This document shows, in pieces, positions 7,901 to 63,930 of a stretch of DNA of 64,000 bases. Position 1 is the stretch's first letter. Every line of letters begins with the position of its first letter. Both the position numbers and the translations under genes were made by a program. The notes beneath the pieces were generated by a model, which was given only the letters and a program-made list of their open reading frames with translations, was not told where the DNA came from and did not search any database. The DNA comes from Fragilaria crotonensis (lineage: Eukaryota; Bacillariophyta; Fragilariophyceae; Fragilariales; Fragilariaceae), in contig JAKSYS010000051.1 of NCBI GenBank assembly GCA_022925895.1, positions 95,914-159,913 of the forward strand, given 5' to 3'.

Positions 7901-8606
7901 TTGAAAAGGACGACGGGGTAAAGGGTCCGCAACACCACAGCTACTTCGGTGTGCAAGTACAAGAGAGGTACAGGGTACCGGCCGGTGGCAGGGATAAAGA
8001 GGATGAGGCGGTGCGCGGTGCCCAATAAAAAGAAAACATCCAATTTTGCACCAAGGGCGCATAAATGCTTAATACTGTCTACCGTAGTATCCCACTGTAC
8101 GGAAGTCTTAAACTTGGTATGATGTATGATACGTGAATGCTACAGTAGTAGTCCGGTTCTAAGAGCGACACTATGTATTGAGAACGAAGGAGCAACTTCA
8201 CTTCGATTTCGTAGTTGTTTCGAGAGAATGATCACTCGAAACAACAATCTTAGTCGCTCTACTATTTCGTTCGCTACCCTCGTCCACGCCTTTCCTTACC
8301 ATGTCGGCCACCTTGACTAGTGTACTCTTCTATATTACGTCGGTAACATCGTCGTCTTGCCCGTAAGTCCAGCGGCCGTTCACTCGCTCCACTTTACCTC
8401 CAACAGCATGCCCGTCACAGGTCACAATCTGGTCCTTCCGTTGGGAAATGAAGGGAAAACGAGAACAACACAAACGGTCAATGCTGGAAATCCCAAAAAA
8501 TGAATCCGGATCCTATTGTCAGGACGAAGTGGAGGATCAAAGAAGTGCAGACAGCACCACACGATCCAAGACCGGCTGCGTCTTCATGCCTTCGGCCACA
8601 TGACAT
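7901..8606. other. Intergenic with a hairpin resembling the copia LTR hairpin
   Basis: No gene is supported. At 8214-8224 and 8235-8245 lies a perfect 11-bp inverted repeat (GTTGTTTCGAG / CTCGAAACAAC). It resembles the TTGTTTCGAAAGAATGATC hairpin in the LTR at 54.9 and 60.7 kb and may belong to an old related solo LTR whose ends are no longer recognisable. Confidence 0.4.
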
Positions 8607-54795: not shown

Positions 54796-54800
54796 TTCAA

Positions 54801-55143
54801 TGTTGTAAATCCGATTCGACCACAATACTATGAGGCCCTGAACCTTGTATTTGTCTTGTAGTGATTCTAACGGAGATACTAATGACAAGTAATGAAGTCA
54901 ATCAAACTCACTCTTTACTCACTGGATTGTTTCGAAAGAATGATCTTTCGAAACACTTTATTATTCTTGCTATTCTTGCTGACCACACGTTCGTTAGGAT
55001 CATTCCTGACCCTACCTTTTACGACGTCAGCCCACGAGACAGATGATGTCTCTCCGGTATCTATAGTTCCTCGTGTATGGTTACTGGCACTGTCACTCAT
55101 GTACTCGTTCATACCTAGGTCCGGTCGTTCTTTATTTCCAACA
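54801..55143 (-). repeat. 3' LTR of the copia element
   Basis: Same sequence as 60541-60883 by visual comparison. It contains the palindrome TTTCGAAAGA..TCTTTCGAAA at about 54928-54954. Just inside it, the polypurine-like GACCGAGGAGCG precedes the LTR on the element's sense strand. Confidence 0.93.
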
Positions 55144-55144
55144 C

Positions 55145-58100
55145 GCTCCTCGGTCGGCATAGGTTGGGTGATGGCGAGAGTGTTCATGTGTTTGTAGCCC
55201 ATGATAACGTCCCGGAATTTCTTGAACAAAGCGCCTTGTAAAGGTTTAGTAAAAAAAATCACCAACCATCTGTAGCGTTGGACAATGGCGGATAGTCATA
55301 CCCTCGGTCTTGATCCGATCTTTCATCCAGAAGTATCGGATGTCAATGTGCCTGGACTTGGGACCGGCAGACATGCGTCCATTCGTCTCCAGCTTAATGG
55401 CACTTTCGTTATCCTGTTCGAGGATGTTCTCCTCAACCTTATAGCCCTGCGCCTCAAGGAAATTCTTCACCCAGATCGTATTCGGCAGGTAGTCACTCGC
55501 TCCTACAAATTCAGCCTCGGTTGAGCTCTTTGTGTTGAGTTTCTGTTTCGTGGACTTACACAATATCCCACCCCGTCCGAGTGACAAAGTTCCCCCAGTG
55601 TGGCTTCGCATATCTGGATGCACAGCATAGGAAGCATCTACCCATGTGCGGAGTCGATTCAAATCATCGGCGCCGATGGTGTACTCGATGTCCATGGATC
55701 CGCTGATGTATTCCAGAACGCGTTTAAGTTTCAATTGGTCTTGCACCGTGCTTTTGGAAACTCGGGTACAGAGGAATGCGATGGCCAACAACAGATCAAC
55801 TCTTGCACGTAGGGATACGTACAGAAGCTTAGCGGACACACTGTGAAATGCCTCGCTTTCTTTCTTGCCCAGTCGCTTCGACTTCTCGTCTACTTCAAAC
55901 AGGTTGCCATTCGCTGGCGTGGAAGCGGGTCTGGAAATAACTAGGCCTGACTCTGCAATAGCCTCGCTCAGGTAATCCTTCATCGTAATGATCGCGGTCT
56001 TCTCGTCGGTATATCGGATCTTCATTCCCAAGAAAACGTGTTCGCGACCTCTGGTGACCGTCATTTTATCAAACCGCCCCTCGATCTTGTGGATAATGTC
56101 GGTGACGACATCGGGATCAACATGTGAGATTTTCATGTCGTCGACGTACCAGGCCACGGTGCACTGTTTTCCGTCAATCAAGCAGTTTGCGACGCATGGG
56201 TCATATGGATTCAGTTCGAAACCCATGTCTTTCAGGTTTTCAACAAATAACTTATACCATAATAGGGCCGATTTCACGCACCCGTAAAGTGCTTTGATAA
56301 GTCGGACGTACAGTACTTCAACCCCGTTTTCCATTGTCACGAATTTCTCATGTTCGGGGTTCAATTGGCAGAGGATTCTGACCGACGCTCCTACGAACTT
56401 CATAATCACAAAATCATCCATGAGGGCCTTCAGGTACGCACCGACCACGTCTGCGGTGGCCACGTCTCGAGCCTCAAAGCTTCGATGATGATAGTCAGCA
56501 TCAACGCATCGGTTGAAACGGTAGGGAGGCGGTTTCGGACTTGTCGTAAAGGTTGCGTTGTGACCGTCCATCGGCGCATGTGCGACTTTTGAGCACTCCG
56601 TTTCGCTTCTCTTTGAATGTGTTTAGTGCCCGGATTGCTGCTTTCATCTGTTCCTCGTGAGTTTCGAAGGTCAAGCACTTCGTAGGCATCTAGGTCCTCC
56701 AGTTGCGAGAGTTCGGTCATGAGTGCAGCCTCGGCTGCCTTTCCGTGTTTGCGTAGACCAGCGCGTTCCGACATTTGTGTGCACGTAGTGGCCATGTGCA
56801 TGAGCACGAAGTTGAATGCGAAACGTTGTCTGTCGTCCATGTTGATCAGTGATGCCTTCGTTAGCGCTTTCTGTAGCAGTTGTGTAGGAGGGTAGTAGGA
56901 TTGTCCACCATGTGGGGCATCAATCGCGTCTTTGAAGGTGCCGCGGGTCACGGTCCTTGGTCGTAAGTAGTACGGTGGCACGCGTTCATCCGCGTGGTCC
57001 GCTCCTGTGTCGTGATCCGCTCCTTCATCTTGACCGTCTTCAGCGGGTTCGGGTGCGTTTGCGTTTGCGAGGTGTTCGGCCTCGTCTTCTGCAAATAGTT
57101 CGGCTTCGGCCGTTGGGTTCTCGTCAAGACTCCCAGCAGGGTGTTCTGAGTCGTCATCGAAAGGGTCGATGTCATCCTCATCATCAAAAGGGACAACGTC
57201 ATCCTCATCGTCCTCGTTATCGGTACTGTCGGCGGCATCATTCGCTCCTTGGTCCGGGACAGCGGGGCCATCAAACAGGGGGGCGTCGACAGGGGCATAG
57301 AGATCGTCAAGCTCGTGGAGGTCGATCGGGTCGTAATCGAGCGCGTCGAACGGGTCGTCAGCAGGGACGACGGTGGGGAGGGCGTAATCGACGTCATATT
57401 CTGTGTCATCGATGGGGTGATCGGGACGCCATTCGATGACGAAGCCACGCTCCTGGATCAGGGGACGGCCTTCGTGGAGGGCCAGGGCCTCGACACGTGC
57501 GATGGCGGTGTCAGGCGTGGGCAGGACGGTCCATTGGTGGCGGGAGATGCGAGCGCCGGAGGCGAGAGAGAGGAAGTAGTAATCTCCTTGCGCATTTCCG
57601 GTGGGGCTGAGGGCGATAGCACCCAAAGAGCGACTGCGGGGAGTGTTGGATGGAGCGTTTTCTTCAAAGACTTGCACATACGTCCCAAATTCCAAACGCA
57701 TTGCGTGATAATCGGGGCTAGCAGACCCGGTGACGATGGTCGCGGGACTCATCGTGGACGAGATGCCGTTGGCACGAGGGAATTGGTTGAGACAGCGGAC
57801 GGAGTCGGAGACCATGTGGGTGATCATGATACGGGGAAGTCGCTTGAAAGGGAGGCCATGTACGCTAGAACGGAGACGCTCCTTAATCGTTCGGATAGAA
57901 CGTTCGATTTCACCGACGTGACTGTCGGTGGTCACGATATTCATTTCTGTGGGACGTAGTTCCTCCCGGATACATTCGAATTCGCTATCTGCATGGACGT
58001 CACAGACGGTCAGGCCCCGGGACTGGTAGAGACTGATGACGGTCGACTTCGGAGGATCGTCTTGTGGGTACGGTCGGCGACCTGGCTGACGGTCCGGAAA

Positions 58101-60496
58101 CCGATACCACGCGAGATCGTGTGTAGGAAAGCTATTCCTTGCACAAAAAAGAAGTCGACGCAGAGCGTGACGTTGCAGTGATGTTCTGCGATTGGTGGAG
58201 GAAGTGGTACGGCCTCGAAGGTGGGCGCCCTCGGTGCCGCTGCTCCTCGGGTTGTCTTACCCTTGAGGGTGGCTACGTCGGGGCCATAGATGAGCAAAGC
58301 GCGATGTGCGTCATCAGGAGTCACGGGGCAGTTTCGGATCTGTTGCTTGATCAGAATAGAACGGAATTCGGCTTCGTCGGGGCGCCCGATCTTTCGGTAT
58401 AGGTCGCGAGCGACGTCGGCAGCAGAGATCTGTCGACGTGAGAACAGCTTCTTCTGGTTTGCTACAGTCGATACCATGGTGTAGGCTGCAACATTATCGC
58501 TAATAGTGGGGCTGTTACGGACTGCCGTATCATAAACGTAGAGGCCAGAGCCGTGTTCGACAAATTTCATGATACTGCCGTCGAGGCGATGCACACACAA
58601 CGCGGGTTCGGTAGAGGTGTCTAGGGTCACGCGACAAACCTTTCTGACGTCGGCTAGTGACAGGATGTTTGCAATCGATTGTGGATTATACCACACAATA
58701 CCCAGGTTGTGGAAATCGCCGACCATATTTGAGTCCTGGTGCCCTCCATTCGTTAGGGCGCGCAATGTGTGAGTGCTCTTACGTATGTCGGTAAGCATGG
58801 AGGCATTGTTGAACACGGAGATGGTCGATTGGGAATCAAGTAGAATCCACTCTGGGTTGATTCGGGAAGCATCGGCCTGCGCCATCATGTACGCATACTG
58901 CGTCAGGGTAGTGCCGCCGACGGATGTGGTTGCAGTCCCCTCGGGGCAGTTCGACGCATAGTGTCCAACGCTGTGACATTGATAGCATTCGATGCCATCG
59001 TGTGTGAGGCCGTTGTTGCCTGCCACCGATCCTTGTTGAGCGAAAGTCATTCCGCTCCCCGTGTCGGACCTGGTAGTGCCCGTCGCATTGGGGGCAGCCT
59101 GTTGTTGTCTGGGTCTCGTCGTGTTCTCCGGCGTGCGATAATTGACGAGCAGATTATATGCTGCAGTCACGTTGGATGGATACTCATCACGCCCCATCGC
59201 GTATTGATTGGAGAGGTGAGCTACGAGGGTTCCGTATCTGGAAGGATCGGATCCAGTGATCAATGCGATCGCCAACGTCTTTTCATAGGCTCTGGAGCGT
59301 CGATCGTCATCGGTGACTGCTGTCCCGTCTTCGTTCACAGCAGGGATTAGTTTGTAGTTCACGGCGATGGTGCCGCCGTGATGATCAATCGTCACAGCCC
59401 ATGCGCGGAGGTCTTCCAAGTATGAGGCTGGCGATTGTCCTACCTGTTGCTTGCAGTTCAGGAAACTGCGTTGGGCGTTCATGATGGAGATGAAACCATT
59501 TTTCTTCTCGTCGAATTGCAAGGTGATGGAACGAATCTGTTGGAGGAGCCAGAAGCAGTTGTTGATCTTCGTCTCGGATTTGAACTCCGTGAGGGACTTG
59601 AGTTTGTCCTTCATGGCTTCGCTACACTGGCCGAGTACAACGGCTTGTATAGTGGCAAGGTTTCCCTTGAATGCGCTCTTCCTCTTGACGAACTCACGTA
59701 GCTCCTGGTCCCAGATGGCCTTTTCCACGATGCTGGCTTCAGGGTCAAGTTCCACGGGCATTTCGAGCTGTGGGTTTTCCATCTCTTCCGAGAAGAGCGG
59801 AGTCAGATCCTCGGCGAACTTCAGGTTCTTCTTAACGTAGGCCTCGAGTGCTTCGCGTCTTTGCGAACTGACGTCGATCAGTTTGCTCCTCGAAGCATTC
59901 GAACACATTGGCGTTCATGCCCTCTGTGTCACCTTTGAAACCAGTTCGTGCTGGGCGGTTGTTTCCCCTTCCGCCTTGGGTGCGGTTATTGATGCGGTTT
60001 CCTCTTCCTCGATTGTTTCCTCGACCCGCCTGCCCGTTCCCGTTACTGGGTCCGGTCGCTCTGCTTGCGGCTTCCGTGACCCCGCTGATGGTCGAGTTGG
60101 CGACGGAGCTACTCATCGAGTCTGAAGGCGGCGCACGTTATTCGGGGCTCGCCAGGTTCGCACTCCGTTGTCGGTCACGAAGTGTACTTGCTTGTTCGGT
60201 CCCTTGATCAGCACTTCTGTTACCGTGGCCGTTTTGCCTTCACTTTCGTTCCACTCCAAGCCGTTGTCCCAATTGGCCGGTTTATGGAGTTTGTTGACTA
60301 TCCAAATTCTGTCTCCACGGGAAAATTCTCTCTTCGTTTCTCTCTCTTCGCTTGCAACGGCAACAGCTTCGTATGTAGCTTCCTCGCAGTCCTTCTCTGC
60401 GATTGCGTGTTCGAGCTGTTCCGTTAGTTCTGCCTTCTGTAGACTCAACACCTTCAATGCGTTTGTCAATTCTTGGATAGTTTTCTTCCTCTCCAT
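55145..60496 (-). pseudogene. Copia gag-pol region, frame-disrupted
   Basis: A first reading frame starts at the ATG at 60496 (127 aa; RGDRIWIVNKLHKPANW, then VTDNGVRTWRAPNN). It overlaps by ATGA with an RG-rich frame starting at 60116. Gag continues in 59908-58010: zinc knuckle CYQCHSVGHYASNC, protease ILLDSQSTISVF, integrase VDFFFVQGIAF. The integrase resumes at 57944-56430 (DVHADSEFE just upstream, HVGEIERSIRTIKER). Reverse transcriptase with WYVDDMKISH and RNase H with DASYAVHPD and SSTEAEFVGASD occupy 56571-55246, and the tail DFFTKPLQGALFKKFRD follows after a shift. Frame changes lie near 59870, 58045, 56600, 56500 and in a T8 run at 55251-55258. As written it would not yield one polyprotein. 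Confidence 0.9.
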
Positions 60497-60522
60497 GTAA
60501 TCAGAACGTTTTTCAAGTTTCA

Positions 60523-60540
60523 CACTTTCTTTCGAAACAA
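60523..60540 (-). other. Putative primer binding site of the copia element
   Basis: The 14 bases directly inside the 5' LTR read TTGTTTCGAAAGAA on the element's sense strand. They do not begin TGG and do not resemble the usual initiator-tRNA site. They are the exact reverse complement of the LTR segment 60667-60680 (TTCTTTCGAAACAA in sense). Confidence 0.6.
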
Positions 60541-60883
60541 TGTTGTAAATCCGATTCGACCACAATACTATGAGGCCCTGAACCTTGTATTTGTCTTGTA
60601 GTGATTCTAACGGAGATACTAATGACAAGTAATGAAGTCAATCAAACTCACTCTTTACTCACTGGATTGTTTCGAAAGAATGATCTTTCGAAACACTTTA
60701 TTATTCTTGCTATTCTTGCTGACCACACGTTCGTTAGGATCATTCCTGACCCTACCTTTTACGACGTCAGCCCACGAGACAGATGATGTCTCTCCGGTAT
60801 CTATAGTTCCTCGTGTATGGTTACTGGCACTGTCACTCATGTACTCGTTCATACCTAGGTCCGGTCGTTCTTTATTTCCAACA
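60541..60883 (-). repeat. 5' LTR of the copia element
   Basis: On the sense strand, a TATA-like AATAATAAA lies at LTR positions 179-187 (60705-60697). It is followed about 25 nt later by TTCTTTCGAAACAA (204-217), part of a perfect 12-bp hairpin. The LTR appears identical to the 3' LTR. Confidence 0.93.
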
Positions 60884-60888
60884 TTCAA

Positions 60889-63169: not shown

Positions 63170-63930
63170 CTCGTGACATGAGGATACAAGGCAGATTTCC
63201 GATGATTCCTCATTGAAAAATCCATTTGCGAGAGGCAAAGTGTACCTTGCGTGAGCTCAATATAACTCGAATTGCTTCTAACCTCGAATTGAGTTGGATT
63301 TGACGATCAAGAAGCTGCAATGGCTTCTAATGAACATTTCAATCGTGAATCGGTCACAGTGAGGAACTAAACCACGTGAGTTTGGCTACATCTGCCACGT
63401 GAGGTCGAATAAACTTATTTACTGTCATCCAAGCAAACGTACGGCAAACTCCTAATAAGACAATTTGAATCCAAACCACGTGAATTTAGTGACATCTGCC
63501 ACGTGAGGTCTAGTTCGTATTATCCAAACAAGCATAAAAATACCTGTCGTGCGTATTATATTGAAAACTTGATCTGATATACTCCAGTACGCGAGTACAG
63601 TATCATGTGCTTTGTACTTTGTACCGCTTAAATTGATTATAGAACCTAGAGTTACCTTTTGTTCTCAGATGATCCAGCTCGACACAAGATCCGCACCGTG
63701 CTTCACAAGACACCGAAATTGAATGCGCCCGACATGTTTCCAGTCAATACGTGGTAGGATAACCGGTAGGCATGTGATTGTCTTGGAGGTAAATGTGGGG
63801 CAATAGATCAATAATGTCCAAACTGAACTGCGCGTGCTTTGGAGCTTGAAGTGTCCTTTGCAAACACCAAGATTGCTATTCGCCTACCATCGTCAGCACA
63901 GCTTCGAACACTTGGCACATCTGTTATACC
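63170..63930. repeat. Second copy of the duplicated upstream segment, without copia
   Basis: Its left part resembles the sequence before the copia element (54.54-54.8 kb) and its right part the sequence after it (60.9-61.2 kb). It therefore represents a relative of the pre-insertion locus. Confidence 0.6.
63371..63505. repeat. 104-bp tandem duplication carrying four CACGTG boxes
   Basis: CACGTG occurs at 63373, 63396, 63477 and 63500. The two pairs are each 23 bp apart and offset by exactly 104 bp, with matching sequence ACATCTGCCACGTGAGGTC around the second box of each pair. CACGTG is the core G-box/E-box recognised by bZIP and bHLH factors, so a regulatory role is plausible. Confidence 0.7.

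Follow-up and report, generated by a model that had tools for sequence, protein, structure and literature searches.

A copia retrotransposon of the diatom Fragilaria crotonensis very probably primed by the 5′ end of its own RNA

Introduction

Tf1 and Tj1 are retrotransposons of the gypsy type, and the Tf1 primer is 11 nt long. To our knowledge, self-priming has been shown experimentally only in the Tf1 group. In Tf1, from Schizosaccharomyces pombe, the primer-binding site (PBS) pairs not with a tRNA but with the 5′ terminus of the RNA that the element itself encodes, and for Tj1, from S. japonicus, the same has been proposed (PMC4600332). Here, a comparable element is described from Fragilaria crotonensis, in a stretch of 64,000 nucleotides (NCBI GenBank assembly GCA_022925895.1, contig JAKSYS010000051.1, positions 95,914 to 159,913 of the forward strand) that is called the window below and numbered from its first letter. 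By direct reading and a script, the element was placed on the minus strand between long terminal repeats (LTRs) at 54801-55143 and 60541-60883. Very probably it is an LTR retrotransposon of the copia type that primes itself in the manner of fission-yeast Tf1.

Self-priming has also been predicted within the copia superfamily. For plant elements of the TAR lineage (Houba and Osr-1), the prediction comes from complementarity of at least 10 bp between the internal start and the 5′ LTR, and an earlier proposal for the same two elements is cited there (PMC6317226). The preliminary description of this locus had named self-priming as established for the gypsy-type Tf1, and copia elements as normally primed by a tRNA or half-tRNA; self-priming in copia is, however, not without precedent, given the TAR prediction (PMC6317226). 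In fungal GalEa copia elements, a Conserved Hairpin Site replaces the PBS (PMC5445492). The diatom copia elements known as CoDi have TG/CA LTR ends in 23 of 26 families, and in the main text of that paper, searched by term, neither a tRNA nor a primer-binding site turned up, its one "PBS" being a buffer (PMC2806351).

Complementarity between the primer-binding site and the LTR

The PBS TTGTTTCGAAAGAA (60527-60540, minus strand; sense reading 60540-60527) directly abuts the 5′ LTR with no gap. It is exactly complementary to TTCTTTCGAAACAA at 60680-60667 on the minus strand, which is LTR position 204-217; this perfect match, already claimed in the preliminary description, was borne out by direct reading and by script. 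Because a T comes after this segment, the terminal A of the LTR can join the pairing as a possible fifteenth pair. The counterpart segment in the 3′ LTR lies at 54927-54940, minus strand.

The genome scanned comprises 62.1 Mb in 881 contigs. Its gene content looks diatom-like: the silicic-acid transporter family has 19 matches in it, 18 of them above the Pfam cut-off, whereas 14 control genomes gave none above that cut-off. The window LTR has 18 matches in it, four from its own family (two elements) and 14 from other families, and all 14 start at LTR position 178-190 and include segment 204-217. A one-mismatch scan with the 14-mer found relatives that have TTCTCTCGAAACAA on opposite strands about 140 bp apart, with the same base altered at both the PBS and the LTR place.

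Relatives were collected with a PBS-edge pattern and also by the place of the reverse transcriptase (RT) alone, because a PBS pattern favours similar PBSs. With three mismatches allowed, the pattern had 283 genome matches, compared to 132 for a control pattern. Among 100 pattern matches listed, 39 copies were read: all but one of the 27 that had at most one mismatch (26 copies), together with 13 others, 11 of which lie near RT places. An exact 14-nt complement within 500 nt upstream was found in 32 of the 39. Three copies were set aside: C384 and C83b have no RT nearby and no complement in 500 nt, and C603 has no complement in 500 nt upstream and an exact 14-mer at the expected 3′ LTR place. 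The 5′ LTR of C603 (near 115165-122473) is seemingly split by about 7 kb, probably through a nested insertion. Addition of 13 distant and three near RT-placed copies gave 52 rows, of which 51 were kept; C220, with only 32 bp of 5′ LTR aligned, was dropped. C398 and C125, with the 5′ side beyond the contig, were left out. At least 76 merged RT places are listed in the genome, and a part of them was read.

The 51 copies contain 19 different PBS sequences, which vary widely and come from three copia clades. An exact 14-nt complement is present in the copy's own LTR in 45 of the 51. The site lies 110-147 nt from the LTR end, and the next-best site within that LTR differs at 3-6 positions. As a chance control, dinucleotide-shuffled LTRs of the 51 copies (2040 cases) were searched with the identical best-match choice. 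None of the shuffled LTRs reached 0 or 1 mismatch in 14 and three reached 2, whereas by the same measure the real LTRs have 0 mismatches in 45, 1 in three and 2 in three of the 51 copies.

Copies picked without regard to the PBS gave the same result. In two distant clades, with RT identity to the query of 39-49%, 13 RT-placed copies were compared using both LTRs, and PBS-LTR complementarity of at least 13 nt was found in all 12 with a readable 5′ LTR. Ten further stretches were requested by distance to the RT only (RT pieces 38-56% identical); one was beyond its contig, and the other nine all carry the complement, compared to any 11-mer complement in 9 of 450 shuffled versions. The PBSs of these nine are mostly unrelated to that of the window, for example AAATTAAATTAAAG, TTTTAAATTAAATA, GTTTTAGTAAAGTA and GTTAATTGAGATTG. 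The complement is therefore present in 21 of 21 readable distant-clade copies picked by RT place alone (12 + 9). Five more window-clade copies were also picked by RT place, and two of them (C536 and C675) have a 12-mer complement.

Over the whole set, the complement is present in 60 of 60 readable copies and exact over 14 nt in 54 (45/51 tabulated plus 9/9 later stretches). Of the rest, one matched over 13 nt, and the pairing of the other five is flawed at one or two positions, in most cases by a G·U. The position-7/8 changes in C242, C327, C445 and C560 are C-to-T or G-to-A at CpG, which would fit decay after insertion. Two pairs may be haplotype duplicates, C327/C445 (99.1% identical) and C37/C653 (98.4%), over about 680 bp with flank. 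Scanning for relatives in viral contigs found none.

Co-change of the two strands

To follow the two strands through the family, a FastTree RT tree was built from the 45 copies with both kinds of data, and PBS and LTR-segment bases were reconstructed on it separately by parsimony. Six copies (C445, C694, C874, C653, C120 and C55) had no RT sequence to place on the tree; in C694 and C874 an RT is first met 11-14 kb away, and may not be part of the element that carries the PBS. Covariation in relatives, proposed as a check in the preliminary description, came out clearly. Of 44 reconstructed changes, 37 were two-sided and ended matched (on 22 branches), as against six one-sided changes (four PBS-only, two LTR-only) and one two-sided change that ended unmatched. 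Five of the 37 fall on the branch to the window's clade (35 tips) and five on root-adjacent branches. The window's own family is one such case, with A instead of G at PBS position 10 and the partner altered too.

Permutation of the pairings gave a similar picture. Over 21 distinct rows, the summed mismatches were 7, compared to a mean of 119 and a minimum of 62 in 20,000 permutations, and within the window's clade alone they were 6, compared to a mean of 29.7 and a minimum of 14. The permutation test ignores relatedness, which the branch counts answer in part. At the level of sequence comparison, pairing between the PBS and the LTR segment is established by this covariation.

Predicted RNA 5′ end and proposed mechanism

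The base directly before the segment is A in 51 of 51 copies, preceded by C to give CA in 49 and TCA in 41; in the window this TCA lies at 60681-60683 on the minus strand. It is part of the initiator-like diatom motif TCAH+1W, derived from the starts of some FCP genes and of ca1, in which +1 is the base after TCA (PMC4686930), and the predicted start is therefore the first base of the segment. In the oomycete motif YCAYTYY, the start is usually at the A, by analogy with mammals (PMC3599244). Under either motif, the RNA would begin no more than one base from the edge of the primer. The pairing itself mostly ends at the A before the segment; that A could be paired in only four of the 51 copies, which belong to a single family.

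Under the proposed mechanism, transcription would start either with the first base of the segment 60680-60667 or with the base preceding it, and the genomic RNA would begin with UUCUUUCGAAACAA, the segment being its predicted nucleotides 1-14. The RNA 5′ end would fold back onto the PBS, the element's RNase H would cleave behind nt 14-15 or thereabouts, and minus-strand synthesis into U5 would be primed from the 3′ end thus released. Transcription start, cleavage and priming are proposed here by analogy with Tf1 (PMC4600332). PBS and LTR segment would stay matched either because each new PBS is a copy of the primer or because pairing is under selection. The proposal builds on direct observations: the exact complementarity and its geometry, the joint changes seen from family to family, the flanking TCA, and the failure of the tRNAs found to match. 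The co-change, together with the lack of a better tRNA among those found, supports the idea of the preliminary description that the element primes with its own RNA 5′ end.

Folding of the predicted leaders is consistent with this mechanism. Minimum-energy folds contained the PBS-segment duplex in 19 of 19 copies tried, with 13-14 pairs and a mean pair probability of 0.73-1.00. In a consensus fold of 21 window-clade leaders, only the primer duplex and two short stems were kept. A conserved U5 stem beside the duplex was considered and not borne out: it is in the window's leader fold and missing from the window-clade consensus. In the consensus of seven clade 2 leaders, MAFFT gap shifts gave non-pairing duplex cells, and its counts were not used.

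Two neighbouring features named in the preliminary description were only partly retained. The first is a 12-bp hairpin with which primer annealing could compete. The 12-bp inverted repeat exists (60684-60695 against 60668-60679, minus strand), but its upstream arm, 60684-60695, lies upstream of the predicted start, in U3, and is therefore predicted to be off the RNA 5′ end, where there would be no competition. In folds of the segment plus 30 nt upstream, made without a shuffled control, 8-13 of the 14 segment bases paired with the upstream arm in 39 of 39 window-clade copies. The hairpin is weak in clade 2 (1-8/14, seven copies) and absent in clade 3 (0/14, five copies), and was rejected as a general part. 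In the window (60667-60695), the predicted start is thus enclosed by an inverted repeat whose arms are the primer segment and, upstream, a second copy of the PBS. The second feature, the TATA-like string AATAATAAA (60705-60697, minus strand, read directly), is present 16 nt upstream of the segment. It is not conserved in the contexts of relatives, judged by eye, and was likewise rejected as a general part.

Alternative explanations

It is improbable that the primer acts in trans, as a short RNA transcribed from a solo LTR, a sister element or some other LTR copy. Solo-like LTRs with such a segment do exist, one of them near window position 8080-8405, and copies of one family have identical sequence. 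However, the fold is favoured within one RNA, and the Tf1 primer acts in cis. A 5′ segment of the element's mRNA has, moreover, been described as the primer (PMC4600332). The stretch at 8080-8405 (minus strand) is a decayed LTR-like sequence of a related family, with best identity, about 78%, to C571 and C108a; its TGATCA reads into TTCTCTCGAAACAA, and it seems to be a solo LTR.

The long-range helix could instead be a leader structure serving packaging, dimerisation or translation control, with priming by other means. Covariation shows pairing and not priming, and the helix is predicted in all 19 leaders, as this explanation would have it. Three features make it distinctly improbable: one strand sits, without a gap, at the exact PBS place of LTR elements, and the element shows no second candidate for a PBS; the predicted RNA start coincides with the beginning of the other strand; and the polarity of the primer suits extension into U5.

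Binding of the PBS by a tRNA, half-tRNA or other host RNA, with an incidental complement in the LTR, would agree with the PBSs for full or half tRNAs in most plant copia groups (PMC6317226). The comparison set is incomplete: of 2258 tRNA candidates 63 were scored and 40 read, giving 39 tRNA genes with only 31 distinct sequences and 20 anticodons, organelle ones included. None of the tabulated PBSs begins with TGG, which therefore excludes CCA-end priming for them. The longest Watson-Crick runs starting in the first four PBS bases were 4-7 nt, the level of shuffled PBSs (means 5.6-6.5). No better tRNA match, the other check proposed in the preliminary description, was thus found above the shuffled level among these 31 tRNAs, and half-tRNA priming was rejected, no internal stretch of the tRNAs found going beyond that level. 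Runs of 7-12 nt do appear when G·U is allowed, but shuffles reach them too, in 23, 22 and 5 of 60 cases for the three PBSs tested. Judged by eye, none of the 100 listed of 108 genome places of the 14-mer (at most one mismatch) overlaps any of the 63 listed tRNA places. The PBSs of near relatives also differ and track their own LTR, and a host-RNA primer is accordingly considered highly improbable.

Chance, through the palindrome TTTCGAAA that is present in the window's own segment and therefore makes 8 of its 14 positions self-matching, has practically no probability left, being already refuted by relatives: families without the palindrome, AT-rich PBSs included, still match over 13-14 nt, and no shuffled LTR of 2040 came within one mismatch.

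For self-priming by the element's own RNA 5′ end, a number of points weigh on the other side. The predicted RNA 5′ end depends on a weak motif, TCAH+1W being found in 8,306 of 12,237 80-nt upstream stretches of P. tricornutum (PMC4686930). YCAYTYY, which fits 30 of the 51 copies, would move +1 one base upstream to the A, and INR+FPR and FPR are reported as apparently missing in T. pseudonana (PMC3599244). The isolated duplex is weak in clade 2 (-8.0 to -10.6 kcal/mol), the leader folds were made without a shuffled control, and the RT tree carries no support test. The LTR segment was picked as the best PBS match, a choice shared by the shuffled control. The tRNA comparison rests on the 63 of 2258 candidates scored and 40 read, and with G·U allowed the window PBS can form a 10-nt run with tRNA-Arg(tcg), a length that 23 of 60 shuffles attain as well. 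Six copies deviate: C242 (one G·U), C327 and C445 (two G·U each), C23 (T·T), C560 (A·C and G·U) and C685 (13 bp). Among the five window-clade copies added by RT place, C560 thus has only a defective complement, and C95 and C44b have their 5′ LTR outside the stretch, their 3′ LTRs carrying the segment.

Structure of the element

The two LTRs are 343 bp long, begin with TG, end with CA and are identical. They are flanked by the target-site duplication TTCAA, at 60884-60888 on the element's 5′ side and 54796-54800 on its 3′ side. The open frame at 55246-56622 (minus strand) matches the Pfam RT family PF07727 RVT_2, the copia-type RT model, with an E value of 1.8e-10 and 41.3 bits against a cut-off of 31.6. 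No other Pfam RT family matched this frame at E up to 0.001, and a gypsy-type RT was therefore not found. By its RT type the element can be assigned to the Ty1/copia superfamily, which the TG...CA LTRs and the short TTCAA duplication also fit. The next frame upstream of the RT (56430-58256, minus strand) is integrase-like by eye only, the frames upstream of the RT having no Pfam integrase match at E up to 1. A third frame (58010-59914, minus strand) has a zinc knuckle (PF00098, E 0.0012, below the Pfam cut-off) and is gag-protease-like by eye.

Several side observations concern the coding region. In the window it is split over several overlapping frames (55246-60540) despite identical LTRs, unlike three relatives in which a single frame exceeds 1700 codons. 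A reading frame, which in relatives is the pol frame, continues in those copies of clade 2 and of the window's clade that were inspected through the U3 of the 3′ LTR (54801-55143; L058, L061, L062, L065 and L171-L173) and ends close to the primer segment; in the window's clade it has a WADVV/WADIV motif. U3 would therefore be promoter and coding sequence at once. In clade 3, the frame stops before the LTR in five of five copies. Elsewhere in the window, 51-nt direct copies with CACGTG motifs within lie at 63356-63406 and 63460-63510 and are 80% identical.

Comparison with known systems

Tf1-like priming in a diatom copia element would be new and has strong comparative support, the principle of self-priming itself not being new; no earlier case in diatom copia elements was found in the open-licence papers searched. 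Earlier, self-priming of copia elements had been predicted in plants, where the complementarity is short; the 19 PBSs among 51 copies, in three copia clades of one diatom, go with their own LTRs and provide strong comparative evidence. Self-priming would explain PBS drift without a tRNA partner, and for many elements it predicts where transcription begins with a precision of about one base, which is testable in diatoms with laboratory genetics. It may also bear on annotation. One diatom genome paper kept only LTR elements with a PBS and a polypurine tract (PMC7466962), and such PBS-requiring annotation may lose elements of this kind if PBS means a tRNA match.

A wider possibility, about which there is slightly more doubt than confidence, is that diatom copia elements are self-primed in general and were so ancestrally. 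With the first bases of the RNA serving as primer, the PBS would be rewritten from the LTR each round and would be free to drift, with the TCA+1 start locked to the primer edge. If true, the position of the core promoter would become part of the reverse-transcription machinery.

The window element resembles CoDi in being a copia element of a diatom. With GalEa it shares the lack of a tRNA-type PBS in a copia element, and the complement of the window type is found in 60 of 60 readable copies. The TAR lineage belongs to plants and is another lineage than that of the window element, yet both are of the copia superfamily and in both self-priming is predicted from PBS-LTR complementarity; a test of PBS-LTR co-change in TAR was not found in the accessible text of PMC6317226.

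The closest parallel is to the fission-yeast elements. These are gypsy-type, whereas the window element has an RVT_2 RT and no gypsy-type RT as in Tf1/sushi was found in it. Its primer would be 14-15 nt long, compared to 11 nt in Tf1, and self-priming is demonstrated for Tf1 and predicted by comparison for the window element. With Tj1 the parallel extends to the reasoning itself, self-priming having been proposed for both from complementarity between the PBS and the 5′ LTR (PMC4600332).
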